Assembly: GCA_018822845.1 (NCBI GenBank)
Contig: JAHJJD010000085.1
Coordinates: 1 to 64,000, forward strand
Source: Gammaproteobacteria bacterium
Lineage (GTDB): Bacteria > Pseudomonadota > Gammaproteobacteria > Thiotrichales > Thiotrichaceae
Direction of reading: 5' to 3'
Length of the DNA: 64,000 nt
The position numbers were made by a program, and so were the translations under genes. The notes beneath the pieces were generated by a model. The model did not search any database. It saw only the letters and a program-made list of their open reading frames with translations, and was not told the origin of the DNA. This document shows, in pieces, positions 14,822 through 63,121 of the stretch; position 1 is the first letter of the stretch; every line of letters begins with the position of its first letter.

Positions 14822-16285
14822 ATGCTGATTTTTAACTGTACCCAAGCAGCGCAAGATTTTTTCACAGTCACCCGAAAAGGTGAAAAACAAACGATCGTCA
14901 CTGCACCTCCCGCCTCGGATATGGCCGAAGATGCCAAACACTTAAGCTACGCAGATGGCAGCCCCGCGCGACCCTTCCAATGGGTACTGCACGCTGTTAC
15001 GGTCAAGCGCAAAAACTGTTTGGTGGCAATGGAGGTGAATACCCGGCTCAGCATTACTGTTACCGCAGTAAAAAAAGGTGACATCGAACACTTCCTCGCT
15101 TATTTCAGGGCAAATTTGCTGGCATTGATATCCGGCTATGCACTGGCATACGATGTCTGGCAACCCGCAGAAGCCGAAACCCGAGAGAACGAAGGTCTGG
15201 CTCATCTGGCAGAAACCCGCATGTTTCGTCGTTCCGATCGCAGTGTGCAAGCCCATATCAATGAAGTTGTGCATATTTTGCGTGACGCTGTAGATGAAAC
15301 CCCCGCACTATTTGACAACACCGGAACACTCTTACGCTTCAACGAATTCTGCAATAACTACCTGCGAAAAAGTCGGGCATTCCCTGATCAGGATTACATC
15401 GTCCCGGCGGAGGAAATGCTGATTTACTGGCAACAACAATACCTGAATGCCACCCCGGAACAGGTTGCCGACATACGCCAGCGACTGGCTGACAGGAAAC
15501 GCAGCAAATATCAGGGCATCATTGAGGATATTACTGCAAAGCATCAATCGAGCCCCCAGGACAAACCAGCCGCAGCCGATAAAACTCAGGTTTTCTTCCC
15601 GCAAGCTGGTTCAGTAGGCGATGCTGACCTGGTTTTTCTTGATGAAATGCTGGCAAAGTACGCCACCGAAGACTCACTGGAAAACGCTTCCACACTGCAT
15701 GGCTTCCTGACAGCGATTGTTTCCGCTCCCAGCATGCTGCCCCCCAGCCAATGGCTGGCAGACATCTGGGGCGGTGAAGGCTTGCAGCCTGCCTGGAAAA
15801 ACATTGAGGAAGCACAGCGTTTTATCGGCGCGCTGTTCAGCATGATGAATAGCATCTCACGGGAACTGATGGAATCACCCCAAACATTCGGCGCAATGTT
15901 TACCGGCAGCTATGACTGCCCTGAAGTTGCTGACTGGTGTTTTGGCTATACCTGCGGCGTTTCGCTGGATGAAGAAGCCTGGTATGAGATGCCTGATGCC
16001 CTGCAAGACCAACTGGATTTGCTTGATACTTATGCCTTGTTAGTGGAAGTAGGTTCCCAACACCTGCCGCAACGCGAGTTACAGGAACGCGCCAACCACG
16101 TCATTGATGCCGCCACCCGGTTACATGCCTACTGGTTAAAACAACGCACACCGATGATGATGCCAGCCAACATTGGCAAACCGCCCCCGACGACGCAACC
16201 CGTAGTTTCGCAAAAACTGGTTGGGCGTAATGACCCTTGCCCCTGCGGCAGTGGTAAAAAATATAAGAAATGCTGTTTGCATTGA
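14822..16285 (+). CDS. DUF6933 - UPF0149 (YecA-like) - SEC-C fusion protein
   Basis: A 487-residue soluble protein in three parts. Residues 1-230 are DUF6933-like (opening [20 protein letters not shown]) and align along their length with the 259-residue protein at 62342: both share FQWVLHA-TVKRK, AMEVNTR and [11 protein letters not shown] ([10 protein letters not shown] in the paralogue). Residues ~265-430 are UPF0149/YecA-like ([31 protein letters not shown]). The last 22 residues are a SEC-C zinc motif, [18 protein letters not shown], as at the end of SecA and many adaptor proteins. It stands alone between unrelated genes. Function unknown; SEC-C and UPF0149 suggest protein-protein or ribosome-related binding (inference). 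Confidence 0.8.
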
Positions 16286-16434: not shown

Positions 16435-17634
16435 TCAAGCAGTATGTTCAGTTCCGGCTGGTAAACGCAGTGACAACAACAACGCCGCCAACACAAACCC
16501 CGCTGAAAACCACAAACAGCCTTCCAGCCCATACTGCTGATACGACCAGCCGGACAGCACCGTGCCCGCCAGCCGCCCACCGGCATTCGCCATGTAATAG
16601 AACCCAACCTTCAGCGCCACTTTATCGTGGTCGGCATACGCCAGGATCAGGTAGGAATGCAGCGCGGAATTGATCGCGAACACCACGCCAAACACCAGCA
16701 AGCCTGTCACCAGTACCGTGCCTGCATCCCAACCCTGCCCCAGCAGCAGCGCGATTGCGGCTGGAATCAACAGCAGGATCAGCGCCCAGACCTGCGCCGT
16801 GCGCGCATCCGGCGCATGTTGTTTCATGCCCAGCAGTTTCGGTGCGCTTGCCTGCACAATGCCGTAGCCAATCACCCACGCAGCCATGAACGTACCCACC
16901 TGCATGAAGCTCCAGCCCAGCACACCCGCCATGAACACTGGCACAGCCACCACGAACCACACATCGCGCGCGCCAAACAGGAAGAAACGCGCCGCCGACA
17001 GCCAGTTGATGGCGGCATTATTGGAAAACACCTGGGTAAATTTTGGTTTGGATTTCGCCTTGCCCAAATCTTCCGGCAGCAGCAGTAAAGTCAGCAAGGT
17101 GACCGCAAACAGGCTCAACGCCAACACCAGCAACGCATACTGGAACCCCGCCACTTGCAGCAAGGCCGCACCGAGGAAAAAACCCACCCCTTTCAGCGCA
17201 TTCTTGGAACCCGTCAGCACCGCGACCCACTTGAACAGACGCGCGTTCGCATCCTTGGGAACCAGCGTTTTCACGCTCGACTTCGCCGACATCTTGTTCA
17301 GATCCTTGGCAATGCCGGACAGCGCCTGCGCAAACATCACATACGGCACGGAAAGCCACTGCGTCGGCATCAGCATTCCCAACGCCAGCACCTGCATCGC
17401 CATACCCAGATGCATGGTCACGTTCAGCCCCAGCCGTGCCGCCAGCCAGCCCCCGACCAGATTGGTGACGATGCCAAAGAATTCATAGAACAGGAACAGC
17501 ATCGCCACCTGAAACGGTGAATAGCCAAGCTGGTGGAAATACAGCACCACCAGCATGCGGATAGCACCATCCGTAAGGGTGAAGGCCCAGTAGCCGCCGG
17601 TAACGACGAGGTAATTGCGCAGGTCGAGGTTCAT
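16435..17634 (-). CDS. arsJ: Organoarsenical efflux MFS permease ArsJ
   Basis: A 399-residue, ~12-segment transporter. The N-terminus LRNYLVVTGGYWAFTLTDGA and the blocks FLFYEFFGIVTNLVGGWLAA, LSGIAKDLNKMSAKSSVK and LTGSKNALKGVGFFLGA are those of ArsJ. ArsJ exports 1-arseno-3-phosphoglycerate made by a partner glyceraldehyde-3-phosphate dehydrogenase from arsenate, giving arsenate resistance. That partner is present at 21441, not adjacent as usual but 3.8 kb away on the same strand. The ATG at 17634 is preferred to a TTG 18 bases upstream. No arsR, arsC or acr3 gene is next to it. Confidence 0.88.
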   Translation of the reverse strand: MNLDLRNYLVVTGGYWAFTLTDGAIRMLVVLYFHQLGYSPFQVAMLFLFYEFFGIVTNLVGGWLAARLGLNVTMHLGMAMQVLALGMLMPTQWLSVPYVMFAQALSGIAKDLNKMSAKSSVKTLVPKDANARLFKWVAVLTGSKNALKGVGFFLGAALLQVAGFQYALLVLALSLFAVTLLTLLLLPEDLGKAKSKPKFTQVFSNNAAINWLSAARFFLFGARDVWFVVAVPVFMAGVLGWSFMQVGTFMAAWVIGYGIVQASAPKLLGMKQHAPDARTAQVWALILLLIPAAIALLLGQGWDAGTVLVTGLLVFGVVFAINSALHSYLILAYADHDKVALKVGFYYMANAGGRLAGTVLSGWSYQQYGLEGCLWFSAGFVLAALLLSLRLPAGTEHTA

Positions 17635-17731
17635 GCATGGTTCCGGTATCAAGAATAGGCGGATTATATACGGAAAGACATATATAACCGCTACCCTTAT
17701 GAACCATCACAGAAAATTCATGTACCCGGCA

Positions 17732-19219
17732 TCAAAGAATCACCGGCCCGGAATCCGCACCTGGCTCATCCAGGCAACGCGCCATTTCTGCCACCAGAAA
17801 GCGCCAGACATTTTTGCCATCATCAAGCGTAAAGCCCGGCTCATTGTCGAGGTAGTAACGGAACAGCCCCCAGTCGGCATACGACAGCCCGGCGGACTCT
17901 TCCGGCGTAAACATGATGTTCTGGAAACCATCATGGCCGAAGTGGCACAAGCCCACGTAATGCCCACCCTCATGGGCCAGCACATAGCGGAAAATATTGA
18001 CCGGCCATTCATCGTGGTAAATGACGCCCGACCCCGTGCGGAAATTGACCGATATGCAGCAACTGTCATTCCGCTCAGGTGTATTGTTGCACGGGGTGGC
18101 ATTGCTACCCTCGCGGATGTTGCGCCCCGCCGTTTGCCCCAAGCCCTCGACCAACCCGAACGAGGCCAGCGCGAGCATGTTGCACTGTTCGCTGGATGGG
18201 TCGGTGCGCAAGCCTGAACTCAGCAGGTATTGCCCGAGTTGCCTGCGGTCGAAGTTGAATTCTTCCAGCGTGCTGATGTCATGCACCGTGTTGCGGGCGA
18301 AATATTCAAAGCGCCCACCATCATTCCAGTTGAGCTTGATGCCGAGTTTCTTGAATTTCGCAATCGTGACCTGTACGAAATCCTTCACCGCATCCGGGGT
18401 CAGCGCGTATACGCGGATACGCCCCTCCGCACCGTTGCTGTCGATGTAATGCGCCAGCGACCAGCGGTTGATGGGCAGGCTGCTTTCAATCGTGCCATCG
18501 GCATTGGTGACGCGCACCATGGTGCGTTTGCGGCGGATATTGAAGGAATCAAAACTGATCAGACCCGCCATGGCGTACAGATCCAGCCTTTCATCCTGAT
18601 GCCACTGCCACAATGGCGCAGTAGCCGAATCCAGGCGGAATACCTTGTGCGTGGCAGCCAGAGGCAATCCCCAGGAAACGTCGTTGAGCCCCAGCCGTCC
18701 ACGCACCCGCGCCAGTTGCGGCGGGTTACTGGCGAAGCGTTCGTTGACAAGCTGCTCGACGAAACGGCGCAAGTCTTCAGCCTGCCATGCATCCCGAATG
18801 CCACCGATGAGGGTTCCCAAGGTGACAAAGCGGACGATGTTGATGACCAGTTCCACCGCATTGAGAATGATGTCACCCAGCTTGCCGATGAAACCGGCCA
18901 GATCACCGCGTAACAGGGCACCCAGCAAACCGCCGACATCATTCACGATGTCCAGCGCCTTATCGACAATATCCTGGACGCCCTCCAGCAACCCCGAGAT
19001 GCCACCCAGTACGACATTGCCGATGCGGCAGCCGATATTGCCTGCATTCCGGCACAGCCAGCCGTTTGCCCAGCCCAGACCATCCTGCACGCCATCGACA
19101 ACGGTATCGACAACATCCTCCACCGTGTCGGTTACGGTATCGACCACACCCTCAACCGCATCGCCCACGGCACCTGCCGCCGAAGATACCGCATTGCCAA
19201 TATCACTTAACCAACCCAT
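17732..19219 (-). CDS. Metzincin-type zinc metalloprotease with repetitive N-terminus
   Basis: A 495-residue protein. Near the C-terminus H416-E417-x2-H420-x5-H426 (HEGGHYVGLCH) is a full HExxHxxGxxH zinc motif, and M436 in NIMF fits a Met-turn ten residues on, as in matrixin-like metzincins. Residues 10-50 are a low-complexity amphipathic stretch of V-D-T/V-x repeats (GDAVEGVVDTVTDTVEDVVD), followed by glycine-rich hydrophobic helices to about residue 135. No Sec signal peptide is seen. A strong GGAGGTGAGGT site precedes the ATG. It is the last gene of a three-gene operon with a putative secreted protein and a membrane protein. Substrate and export route unknown. Confidence 0.75.
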   Translation of the reverse strand: MGWLSDIGNAVSSAAGAVGDAVEGVVDTVTDTVEDVVDTVVDGVQDGLGWANGWLCRNAGNIGCRIGNVVLGGISGLLEGVQDIVDKALDIVNDVGGLLGALLRGDLAGFIGKLGDIILNAVELVINIVRFVTLGTLIGGIRDAWQAEDLRRFVEQLVNERFASNPPQLARVRGRLGLNDVSWGLPLAATHKVFRLDSATAPLWQWHQDERLDLYAMAGLISFDSFNIRRKRTMVRVTNADGTIESSLPINRWSLAHYIDSNGAEGRIRVYALTPDAVKDFVQVTIAKFKKLGIKLNWNDGGRFEYFARNTVHDISTLEEFNFDRRQLGQYLLSSGLRTDPSSEQCNMLALASFGLVEGLGQTAGRNIREGSNATPCNNTPERNDSCCISVNFRTGSGVIYHDEWPVNIFRYVLAHEGGHYVGLCHFGHDGFQNIMFTPEESAGLSYADWGLFRYYLDNEPGFTLDDGKNVWRFLVAEMARCLDEPGADSGPVIL

Positions 19220-19260
19220 ACCTCACCTCCTTGCAAGCGCATCATAAAGAGTGTCCAAAC

Positions 19261-19731
19261 CTATGGATTCGGTATATTGCCGGGCGGCGGGCAAGCCGGA
19301 TTGGTCGTGATGGTGGTCTGGCGCGAATCCTTTTCCTGCCCCGCCACACTGGGCACCAGTCTTACCCCAACCGTGATGCTGGAGGGAACATTGCTGCCGA
19401 AAAACTGGGTAGGCCGGAAAGTAAGTTCACCGCTGGTTCCATCATTGAGGCACTGATGATGCACCGTGTTATGGATTTGCTGGCCATTCGCCAGAACATC
19501 GACGCACAAGGTGCTGGGGTTGCTCCAGCCGTCAGGATCAACCGTATAGGAAACCCGGACAAAATCCACCCCGACATTCAAACATACTGCCGCTGGCTCA
19601 ACGCTAAAAGCCGTGAACCTTGGTTCAGGCTCGGATTGTGTACGGGTATTATTGCTCCCGGAAGCAATGATGCCCGCGATCCCGATGATGACGCTCGATA
19701 CCAGACCAATGGTTTTCAATGACTTTTTCAT
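19261..19731 (-). CDS. Secreted or membrane-anchored protein of unknown function
   Basis: A 156-residue protein with an N-terminal signal or anchor (MKKSLKTIGLVSSVIIGIAG) and no lipobox cysteine. The mature part has three cysteines and beta-rich stretches (FVRVSYTVDPDGWSNPSTLCVDV, SSITVGVRLVPSVAG), suggesting an Ig-like fold. Its ATG overlaps the stop of the upstream membrane-protein gene by 4 bases, and the metzincin gene follows 41 bases later. The three genes therefore form an operon. No family recognised. Confidence 0.7.
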   Translation of the reverse strand: MKKSLKTIGLVSSVIIGIAGIIASGSNNTRTQSEPEPRFTAFSVEPAAVCLNVGVDFVRVSYTVDPDGWSNPSTLCVDVLANGQQIHNTVHHQCLNDGTSGELTFRPTQFFGSNVPSSITVGVRLVPSVAGQEKDSRQTTITTNPACPPPGNIPNP

Positions 19732-20177
19732 TTCATAATTCTCCCTGACTGGTTAAGGTTATGAGTGATTGCAAACATTATGAATAATGCGCATAAAGCA
19801 CCGGCAAATGCGGCCAGAATATCGAGGGGATCAAATTCCCCAAGCGTCATGAATTCCGGCCCCACCTCAGATGCCAGCAACAAGGCAAGCATTTCAAACA
19901 ACACATTGATGAAACACCAGAACAGCGAGCAGCCAAGCAGTAAAACCGGACTACGCCCAACAAACGCCCCTGAAATCAGGCTAAACCCCAGCACATGCAC
20001 AAAGGTCGGCAGACTGTTGGCTGCGTATGGAAGGCCACCGCAGCCACCCTGCGGCACCCCGCCCGCCAGCCAGCCAAGCAACGCTGGCGGCTCCTGCCTG
20101 CAACGGGTGTAATAAAGCACCCCCACCAATAACGCCGCCACGCCAACCAGAAGATACCATTTACGATAATGATGCAT
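19728..20177 (-). CDS. Small integral membrane protein of unknown function
   Basis: A 149-residue protein with about four hydrophobic segments (residues 7-23, 60-75, 80-101 and 118-138). The loop after the first segment contains a cysteine/glycine-rich patch (PQGGCGGLPYAANSLPT). CAGGAGC precedes the ATG. It is the first gene of the operon leading to the metzincin protease. I do not recognise a family. A role as membrane partner for the protease or its export is possible but only inferred from linkage. Confidence 0.7.
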   Translation of the reverse strand: MHHYRKWYLLVGVAALLVGVLYYTRCRQEPPALLGWLAGGVPQGGCGGLPYAANSLPTFVHVLGFSLISGAFVGRSPVLLLGCSLFWCFINVLFEMLALLLASEVGPEFMTLGEFDPLDILAAFAGALCALFIMFAITHNLNQSGRIMK

Positions 20178-20465: not shown

Positions 20466-21425
20466 ATGAAAAGCTATCCACAGATGCTGTTTGTTGTACT
20501 CCTATTCTTCACCGCCACCGCACTGGCGGAACTCACCGTCAAGGAATACCCCCTGCCCGCTGGAACACATCCGCACGATGTAGCTCCCGCAACCGATGGC
20601 GGCGTGTGGTATACCGCGCAACACGCCGCCGCCCTCGGCTGGCTAGACCCGGCAACCGGCAAAACCCGGCATATAGCTCTGGGTGAAAGCTCCCGTCCCC
20701 ACGGCGTAATCGTTGGCCCCGATGGCGCGCCCTGGATCACCGACTCGGGACTCAACGCCATCGTGCGCGTCGACCCGGCAACCTTCCAGGTACGGGTATT
20801 TCCCCCACCCGCAGGCACACCAGCCATGAACCTCAACACGGCGACTTTCGACCGGAACGGCATTCTCTGGTTCACCGGACAGGCAGGCTATTATGGCCGC
20901 GCCGATCCAGCCAGTGGTGAGGTAAAAGTATTCGAAGCGCCACACGGCATTGGGCCTTACGGCATTACCACCGCGCCCGACGGCAGCGTTTATTACGCTT
21001 CGCTGGCCGGATCGCACATTGCGCGCATTGATGTAAAAACAGGCAAAGCCGAAGTCATCACGCCCCCTACCGAAGGCCAGGGCGCACGACGTGTCTGGGC
21101 CGATTCCAAAGGCAATATCTGGGTAAGCGAATGGTTCGTTGGCCAACTTGCGCGTTACACGCCAGCCACACGATCCTGGCGTGAATGGCAGCTTCCGGGC
21201 AATGAACCGCGCGCCTACGCCGTGTATGTCGACGACCGGGACAAGGTATGGGTGTCCGACTTTAGCGCCAATGCTGTTCTGCGCTTCGACCCGGTTACAG
21301 AAGAATTCGAGAGTGTCAAGCTGCCCAGCCCCTCCGCCAGCGTGCGCCAGATTCTGGGCAGGGCTGGCGAGGTGTGGCTGCCTGAATCAGGGGCGGACAA
21401 GCTGACGGTAATTCACACGGACTGA
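20466..21425 (+). CDS. Secreted Vgb-like (streptogramin-lyase-like) beta-propeller protein
   Basis: A 319-residue protein with a signal peptide (residues 1-21, ending ALA-ELTVKEYPLP). The mature part is made of repeated propeller blades with motifs such as PHDVAPATDGGVWYT, SRPHGVIVGPDGAPWITDSG, YGITTAPDGSVYYAS and GNIWVSEWFVGQLARY. This is the pattern of the Vgb family. Many such proteins are not antibiotic lyases, and a periplasmic location makes virginiamycin inactivation doubtful. It is the only plus-strand gene between arsJ and its GAPDH partner, and ends 15 bases before that convergent gene. Confidence 0.8.
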   Translation: MKSYPQMLFVVLLFFTATALAELTVKEYPLPAGTHPHDVAPATDGGVWYTAQHAAALGWLDPATGKTRHIALGESSRPHGVIVGPDGAPWITDSGLNAIVRVDPATFQVRVFPPPAGTPAMNLNTATFDRNGILWFTGQAGYYGRADPASGEVKVFEAPHGIGPYGITTAPDGSVYYASLAGSHIARIDVKTGKAEVITPPTEGQGARRVWADSKGNIWVSEWFVGQLARYTPATRSWREWQLPGNEPRAYAVYVDDRDKVWVSDFSANAVLRFDPVTEEFESVKLPSPSASVRQILGRAGEVWLPESGADKLTVIHTD

Positions 21426-21440
21426 TCCGGGCATGCACCG

Positions 21441-22436
21441 TTACAGATGCTTCACCACTTTTTCCGCCAGTTCCATCATGCGGTTCATGTAGCCCCACTC
21501 GTTGTCATACCACGCATAGATTTTCACCTGCGTACCGTCAATGACCATGGTGGAAGGTGCATCAATGATGGAAGACAGCGGGTTTCCCTTGTAATCCACC
21601 GACACCAGCGGACGTTCTTCGTAACCGAGTATGCCTTTGAGGTAGGTTTCGGAGGCCTCCTTGAAATAGCCATTCAGCTCTTCCGCCGTCACTTCCCGCG
21701 CTGCTTCAAACACGAAATCAGTCAGGGAAGCATTCAGCAGCGGAATGCGTACTGCATGGCCGTTGAGCTTACCTTGCAGTTCCGGGAAGATTTTGCTGAT
21801 GGCCTTGGCGGAACCGGTAGTGGTGGGAATCATGGATTCGCCGCACGCCCGCGCCCGGCGCAAATCCTTGTGCCCCTTGTCGATAATGGTCTGGGTGTTG
21901 GTGATATTGTGCAAGGTGGTCATGCAACCGTGCTTGATGCCGACCTTTTCGTGCATGACCTTGACCACCGGCGCAAGGCAGTTGGTGGTGCAGGAAGCCG
22001 CCGTAATCAAATGATGTTCATCCGGCTTGTACCAGTCGTCGTTGACGCCGTAGACGATGTTCAGCGCACCTTCCACAGGGGCGGCCACGATCACTTTCTT
22101 CACACCCTGGTCGAAATACGCCTGCAACTGCTCGACCTTGCGGAACTTGCCGCTGCATTCCAGCACGATGTCGCAGCCCGACCAGTCGGTGTCTTCGATC
22201 GCCTTGTTGGAGGTGTAGGCAATGGCTTGACCATCCACCATCATGCTGGATTCATCTGCACTGCATTCCGGTTGCCAGATGCCTTGCACGGAATCGAATT
22301 TCAGCAAATGGGCGGAAGTTGCTGCATTGCCCGCGATTTCATTGACCTGCGTGAAGGTGAACGCAGGGTTGCCCCATGCTGCGCGGATGCCCAGACGCCC
22401 CATGCGCCCGAAACCGTTAATGCCGATGTTTGCCAT
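21441..22436 (-). CDS. gapdh: ArsJ-associated glyceraldehyde-3-phosphate dehydrogenase
   Basis: A 331-residue GAPDH with the NAD motif [17 protein letters not shown] and catalytic C149 in [11 protein letters not shown]. Blocks such as [34 protein letters not shown] and [16 protein letters not shown] are of the arsenical-associated subtype rather than the glycolytic one. In that pathway it forms 1-arseno-3-phosphoglycerate from arsenate and glyceraldehyde 3-phosphate for export by ArsJ. It is 3.8 kb from arsJ, same strand. It follows the bat operon by 96 bases and could be read from it. Assignment to the arsenic subtype is from sequence pattern and the presence of arsJ. Confidence 0.85.
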
Positions 22437-62341: not shown

Positions 62342-63121
62342 ATGCTAATTTTTAACTGCACCAAAGCCGCCACCGAGTTTTTCACCGTCACCCGTAAAGG
62401 CGAGAAGCAATCGTTTGTGTATCCACCTGATAAGAACATCACCATTGATAGCCAACGTCTGCAAGATGCAGACGGCAACCCAGTGATGCTGTTCCAGTGG
62501 GTACTGCACGCCATCACAGTCAAACGCAAACATTGCCTGATAGCGATGGAAGTCAACACCCGTTTCAGCGTCATCCTCACCGCTATGCCCAAAGGCAATC
62601 CCGATGCGTTCATTGACCGCTTCAAACCCCGCCTGCTGGATCAATTATTCGGGTTTGCGTTGCAATCTGGCATCTTGAAGGAAGAACAGTTTGCCATGTT
62701 CATTAACGAATTCATGGCACAAACTGCCGATATTTTCTTATGCCAACGTTCCGACCGCAGCGTACAAGCTCATATCAACGATGTGGTTTCACAGTTCACC
62801 GAAACCGTGGATGCCAGCGGATACGTGCCGGATAACGAAGGCGAAATGCTGAATTTCAGTGCTTACATCAACAACCAACTGCGTAAAGTTAAACCAAGCA
62901 GGGACTACACCCACCCAGATGAGCAAATGCTGTTGTTCTGGCTACAGCAATTTTGCGGTTTCACACCAGAACAGGCGGCGAGCATCAAGCAACATTTTGC
63001 TGACCTACACCGTCGCAGTTTTAGCGCATGGAATGACATACCCGATGATGTGAAGCCGCCGCCATACACGGATAAAATTGTGATATTGGAAGACTTCAAG
63101 GCACAAAAAGGGAATAAATAA
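62342..63121 (+). CDS. DUF6933 protein embedded in the restriction operon
   Basis: A 259-residue soluble protein beginning [23 protein letters not shown]. It aligns over its length with residues 1-230 of the fusion protein at 14822, sharing [31 protein letters not shown] and a late YW/FWLQQF block. Its TAA stop overlaps the hsdR ATG by one base, so the genes are coupled. Function unknown; its place suggests a role with the restriction complex. Confidence 0.8.
   Translation: MLIFNCTKAATEFFTVTRKGEKQSFVYPPDKNITIDSQRLQDADGNPVMLFQWVLHAITVKRKHCLIAMEVNTRFSVILTAMPKGNPDAFIDRFKPRLLDQLFGFALQSGILKEEQFAMFINEFMAQTADIFLCQRSDRSVQAHINDVVSQFTETVDASGYVPDNEGEMLNFSAYINNQLRKVKPSRDYTHPDEQMLLFWLQQFCGFTPEQAASIKQHFADLHRRSFSAWNDIPDDVKPPPYTDKIVILEDFKAQKGNK

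Follow-up and report, generated by a model that had tools for sequence, protein, structure and literature searches.

Metzincins such as the matrixins (M10), adamalysins (M12B) and archaemetzincins (M54) have an HExxHxxGxxH zinc-binding motif and a Met-turn. Both are common to a 495-residue protein encoded in the window, which is the whole stretch of 64,000 nucleotides analyzed here, and solved structures of M10, M12B and M54 enzymes were the first that a profile of this protease reached. Unlike the known metzincins, however, the window family matches no family at its cut-off, adds a histidine after the third zinc ligand as well as a helical N-terminus, and has ~270 residues ahead of the zinc motif within the catalytic region that belong to no named domain. 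The N-terminus resembles the perilipins, which contain Val/Thr/Asp-rich, amphipathic 11-residue repeats like those of the window protease, and the likeness includes one sub-threshold Pfam match. Plin4 is one member of this group (PMC5889406). In contrast to perilipins, the window protein has only four repeats, and these are acidic and fused to a protease.

Two further genes lie beside the protease gene (here, gene 1 and gene 2). They recall the rhombosortase/GlyGly-CTERM and myxosortase/MYXO-CTERM systems, in which a small intramembrane protein has as its partner a client with a short motif bordering a membrane segment (PMC3237569; PMC11980579). Genes 1 and 2 likewise encode a membrane protein and a motif-bearing putative client; unlike in those systems, the motif is N-terminal, and the membrane protein is VanZ-like and has one client of its own. 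Gene 1 and its relatives keep the PxFxH...N.xFE...F.xxD pattern of the VanZ family (PF04892), from which gene 1 differs in being paired with a downstream client gene. To our knowledge, the function of VanZ-like proteins is poorly known. The parts of the literature that were searched held no description of the metzincin family or of the gene 1-2 pair, which is a limited negative.

An insert carrying the three genes between arsJ and its partner gene

All three ORFs of a trio that the earlier note had described as overlapping or closely spaced are present on the minus strand (Table 1). Genes 1 and 2 overlap by 4 bases, and the protease gene follows 41 bases further downstream. AGGAG- and GGGAG-type ribosome-binding-type sites precede genes 1 and 2, and another site of this kind, AAGGAGGTGAGGT, lies upstream of the protease start. 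Scans for promoters (0 found versus 2.4 expected) and terminators (3 found versus 3.8 expected) were uninformative. Elsewhere in the window, the ORFs at 14822-16285 and 62342-63121 are alike at their starts and likely paralogous; the first has a cysteine-rich tail.

Table 1. Features of the protease locus and its flanks (positions in the window)
Feature	Positions	Strand	Basis or remark
arsJ	16435..17652 (likely start 17634)	-	NF033734; insertion flank
Metzincin gene	17732..19219	-	ORF call, 495 aa; relatives found
Catalytic region, residues 146-495	17735..18784	-	Seven-row alignment, profile searches
Met of Met-turn, residue 436	17912..17914	-	Alignments
Zinc-binding motif HEGGHYVGLCH, residues 416-426	17942..17974	-	Sequence and alignments
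Glycine-rich amphipathic helical region, residues 49-145	18785..19075	-	Marginal membrane-like stretch at ~117-135
Four 11-residue repeats, residues 4-47, consensus VDTVxDxVEDV	19079..19210	-	Predicted amphipathic helix
Gene 2 (156-aa protein)	19261..19731	-	N-terminal membrane segment, no lipobox cysteine
Gene 2 motif GIAGIIASG, residues 17-25	19657..19683	-	Sequence, motif census
Gene 1 (149-aa membrane protein)	19728..20177	-	VanZ-like by conserved pattern
Vgb_lyase-family gene	20466..21425	+	Pfam; lies between arsJ and the GAPDH gene; membership of the system doubtful
ArsJ-associated GAPDH gene	21441..22436	-	NF033735; insertion flank

The flanking genes are identified by NCBIfam, as arsJ (610.6 bits against a cut-off of 400) and as the gene for the ArsJ-associated GAPDH (557.3 bits against 450). 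The gap between them also holds a plus-strand gene of the Vgb_lyase family (113.1 bits against 50) that the earlier note had not mentioned. Among 15 same-genus relatives, 12 have arsJ, and at 10 of these 12 loci arsJ and the GAPDH gene adjoin within a few bases; a tblastn search (E 1e-3) found none of the protease gene, genes 1 and 2 and the Vgb_lyase gene in the 12 arsJ stretches. These counts bear out the proposed insertion between arsJ and its partner gene, and in the stretches searched the trio was not common near arsJ. The two remaining loci hold other inserts: 1.8 kb in G015 (L060:5469-7232), whose first ORF has Transglut_core and Bact_transglu_N domains, and 0.66 kb in G010 (L071:6252-6909), with another small ORF. 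The junction thus accepts inserts. By reading, the small ORF in G010 is a candidate hemerythrin-like protein. The insert that carries the trio is ~3.8 kb long and is not compositionally foreign, with a G+C content of 0.579 for the protease gene, 0.541 for gene 2 and 0.527 for gene 1 against 0.551 for the window; this makes recent acquisition from a different phylum less likely.

The proposal that the trio forms one functional unit did not survive comparison of neighborhoods. Six relatives of the protease lack adjoining genes 1 and 2, and three gene 1 relatives from the same bacterial family precede different cargo genes, with no protease of this kind; we therefore rejected the trio as a single conserved unit. 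Most probably, genes 1 and 2 form a membrane pair of their own that is transcribed together with the protease gene, and are not obligate partners of the protease. As read, the window ORFs of at least 250 aa include no link to secretion genes, and no described secretion effector family, which the earlier note had named as a possible refutation, was found in the searches made. No delivery domain scored above a Pfam, NCBIfam or PADLOC cut-off, nor was a delivery marker recognized in the neighborhoods, which were read by eye. PADLOC matched no family to the seven proteins of the systems, and a defense system was rejected on this basis.

A metzincin below every family cut-off

The full HExxHxxGxxH motif and Met-turn that the earlier note had read in the 495-aa protein are present. 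The three histidines, the glutamate, the glycine and the methionine of the Met-turn (Ile-Met, residues 435-436) are invariant in a six-row full-length alignment and in all seven rows of an alignment of the catalytic region; in the latter, a further histidine, three residues past the third zinc ligand, is likewise invariant (7/7). The window protease matched no protease family in Pfam at E values up to 1, with no match to PF00413, Reprolysin_4 or M54 in that range, and a single protease family in NCBIfam at E 0.11, where no cut-off was reached. A PF00413 search of its own genome was also negative (0/1). Among the relatives, the best PF00413 score was 19 bits, below the cut-off of 24; sub-threshold Pfam matches at E up to 1 were to M10 in six of the seven members and to Reprolysin_4 in six of seven. 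Assignment to a described protease family was dropped, as no cut-off was reached.

A seven-sequence profile had 64 matches among solved structures; of the 60 listed, 58 bore metallopeptidase names, including 'FII', which we take to be one. The best E value was 0.0028, only this first row lay below E 0.01 among the matches listed, and the matches mostly covered the motif stretch. Two structure predictions had mean pLDDT values of 33.5 and 42.3, too low for a usable fold, and with these models Foldseek returned one match, at E 3.5, and VIA-align none. Judged by motif and profile, the 495-aa protein is a metzincin, one that lies below every Pfam and NCBIfam cut-off.

Six relatives of the protease were found, all through Bacteroidota-side searches, two at 45-46% identity and four at 22-25%. 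The two nearest, from Muricauda myxillae (45% over the whole length) and Flagellimonas beolgyonensis (46%), came from a scan of a species collection that requires exact short peptides and so misses distant relatives. A search of the Muricauda family matched 8 of 397 genomes, with three true full-length proteins (in G815 and G453, counting G451 as the third); the Muricauda phylum gave 11 matches among 395 genomes, three of them true and two of these three already known, which added G1000; and the family of G1000 gave 13 among 170, two of them true counting G1000, which added G1593. The weak matches excluded from these searches (5 of 8, 8 of 11 and 11 of 13) scored 18.6 to 26 bits and covered N-terminal or zinc-motif stretches only. 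Among 57 relatives and among 398 Pseudomonadota genomes, with its own genome included in each set, the protease was found in its own genome only. dN/dS values in the family were mostly saturated and are left out of the argument.

In the four distant relatives the N-terminal region is likewise long and amphipathic or hydrophobic, and its sequence is a different one, with a charged start, a conserved WCxCCNKWFCW motif and hydrophobic segments. Directly downstream of each lies a gene whose conserved 120-126-aa product has a CGC motif and two hydrophobic stretches; this partner was undetected in the window and at the loci (21 kb) of the two nearest relatives. At the Flagellimonas-type protease loci L002 and L003, the immediate neighbors have no DNA similarity by blastn, and four further matches, found on either side and in conserved order, make the wider region collinear. 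An ORF pair of 148 and 155 aa (L002:6269-6715 and L003:11562-12029; 47% identity, no Pfam match) lies near the protease gene at unequal distances.

For the window protease, we found no viral relatives and no plasmid or phage matches, and a phage or plasmid origin was rejected on that ground. Two longer relatives had no match to phage or plasmid sequences, and viral scans with catalytic, partner and N-terminal alignments yielded no confirmed relative. A single plasmid, from a Listeria record, was weakly matched by the N-terminal part of one relative (25% identity, E 1e-3). Two viral matches to the window N-terminus span only 30 residues of a longer reading frame and seem to reflect shared composition.

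The N-terminal helices as a possible lipid tether

The two nearest relatives preserve the register of the four repeats (LSDIGNAVSSA, AGAVGDAVEGV, VDTVTDTVEDV and VDTVVDGVQDG). Identity to these Flagellimonas/Muricauda proteins is 71-73% over residues 1-48, compared to 42-43% over residues 146-495, and on this sequence comparison the repeat segment is the most constrained part of the protease. Over residues 4-46, a 43-residue stretch that fixes the angle to a few degrees, the window protein and its two nearest relatives share a peak of hydrophobic periodicity at 98.5 degrees whose strength none of 500 shuffles reached; the shuffles probe amphipathicity, not lipid binding. The other four relatives peak at 96.0 degrees (1, 1, 2 and 3 of 500 shuffles as strong). 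Residues 60-134 peak at 98.0-98.5 degrees (0/500). The 11-residue register itself comes from the visible repeats, not from the angle. The valine/aspartate repeats and amphipathic helices noticed earlier are thus a real, conserved array, given periodicity beyond chance and 71-73% identity, and the reported lack of a Sec signal also held, with a net charge of -10 over 48 residues and nothing Sec-like. Membrane insertion, which the earlier note considered possible for these helices, gained no support from the two low-pLDDT models.

We tentatively prefer to read the protein as a zinc protease that looks active, represents a metzincin family not described before and may be kept on a lipid surface by its N-terminus; lipid binding, the surface, activity and substrate are what we infer. 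The first 47 residues would form a single long helix of 11-residue repeats, with a valine/alanine face opposite an aspartate/glutamate face, that would rest flat on a membrane or lipid particle. Glycine-rich amphipathic helices would come next, and together the N-terminal helices would position the C-terminal metzincin domain at the lipid surface. Because both fold predictions failed, we infer this mechanism. Perilipin (PF03036) was the sole Pfam match of the window protease (E 1.3e-4, 21.6 bits against a cut-off of 33); the same match had E values of 0.0032 and 0.18 in relatives and was absent in two others. The N-terminus also matched phage tail tape-measure families in PHROG (E 9.5e-5 for the window protein, 2.5e-9 for one relative), and shared composition may explain these and the Perilipin match alike. 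The acidity of the repeat helix (-10) is unfavorable on anionic membranes and is a point against a lipid tether, a reading that is also weakened by the low-pLDDT folds, the fading Perilipin similarity and the tape-measure similarity. If it is true, a perilipin-like repeat helix would be a new means of bringing a zinc protease to a lipid surface, with four bacterial anchor variants available from the family.

Weak matches to the protease N-terminus also turned up in other proteins. One is a Bacteroidota protein of more than 800 residues with repeated amphipathic helices of the approximate form EIGKTIxxI (L010:877-3396), and two are small lipoprotein-like ORFs with 11-residue-type repeats of the form DAVDxAxDAAGDAVDx (L012:1221-1625 and L013:1312-1680).

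The helices could instead serve to cross or perforate a target membrane, which would make the protein a delivered antibacterial toxin with the metzincin as payload and small membrane proteins as immunity factors. The patchy occurrence of the protease, N-terminal regions that vary among subgroups around a retained catalytic part, the tape-measure-like matches and the conserved downstream protein with two hydrophobic stretches in the four long-N-terminus relatives all fit this idea. We nevertheless consider it rather unlikely, as that partner was detected neither in the window nor beside the two nearest relatives, no delivery marker was recognized in the neighborhoods read (PADLOC, 0 of seven proteins), and the window protein has no viral relative and no plasmid or phage match.

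Right-handed coiled coils also contain 11-residue repeats, and hydrophobic residues at positions 1, 4, 8 and 11 of each repeat, as found here, fit a hendecad core. The repeats could therefore make the protease oligomeric with no lipid anchor, and a designed helical repeat and tape-measure chains are indeed among its weak matches. However, the hydrophobic face runs on into the glycine-rich helices, which include one membrane-like stretch, and the corresponding region of four relatives has strongly hydrophobic stretches; we regard this alternative as improbable. More doubtful still is a coat function in which the protease would sit, perilipin-like, on a polyester or neutral-lipid granule and trim granule proteins. 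Perilipin-like repeats and the absence of an export signal are what this would predict, but no granule gene lies nearby, as read, the Perilipin match is below its cut-off, and the protease has conserved cysteines, which suggest an oxidizing place. That the protein is cargo of a phage-tail-like particle and its N-terminus a tape-measure remnant is very improbable despite the PHROG matches (up to E 2.5e-9 in a relative), as no tail genes were recognized around any of the seven protease genes, as read, and there are no viral relatives beyond two N-terminal matches of 30 residues.

A VanZ-like protein and its putative client

The window gene 1 protein does not match VanZ (PF04892), and the best match of a relative was below the cut-off (E 0.028, 15.5 bits against 30.1). 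Three of 56 related genomes contain weak relatives of gene 1, and a client-like gene follows each of these; one relative, in G021, was found in this search and missed by tblastn. A four-row alignment of gene 1 matched 9 of 303 genomes of the class, its own included, of which seven were fetched and the weakest, G1369 (E 6.2e-4, internal stop), was left out. For gene 2, the only relative outside its own genome was a 59-residue frame interrupted by stops, in one of 144 genomes.

Altogether, 11 VanZ-like loci comprise six paired with a client (19261-20177 of the window, L073, L074, L075, L086 and L087) and five single ones. Five of the six pairs overlap if an internal ATG is used in L086, and the genes of the sixth are 7 bases apart. 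The gene 2 product reads GIAGIIASGSNN in this part, without the lipobox cysteine of a bacterial lipoprotein at the end of the membrane segment. The membrane segments of the six clients end in GIAGIIASG (window), GVFFILGSG, GIFLILASG, GIFLIIGSG, GLTSIIASN and GIISILGTR; beyond them the proteins are varied, two having Lcl_C and fn3 domains. Among 1249 distinct ORFs of at least 80 aa in all sequences collected (218 with a hydrophobic start), the motif GxxI(I/L)(A/G)S(G/N) had only six matches, for a motif composed after seeing the six clients, one of which misses its strict form. All six motif-bearing ORFs lie directly downstream of a VanZ-like gene.

It is possible, though doubtful, that genes 1 and 2 represent an undescribed sorting or processing system in which the VanZ-like protein would act via a lipobox-like, cysteine-less client signal, and that their operon acquired a lipid-surface metzincin, so that all three products would meet on one membrane. 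A sorting system of this kind would give VanZ-like proteins a testable role. In a tree of the VanZ-like proteins, which carries long-branch warnings, one branch splits the paired from the single ones with support of 83/88, below the 95/80 mark. Clustering as tight as that of the labels on this tree arose in 0 of 500 shuffles for the paired proteins and in 2 of 500 for the single ones.
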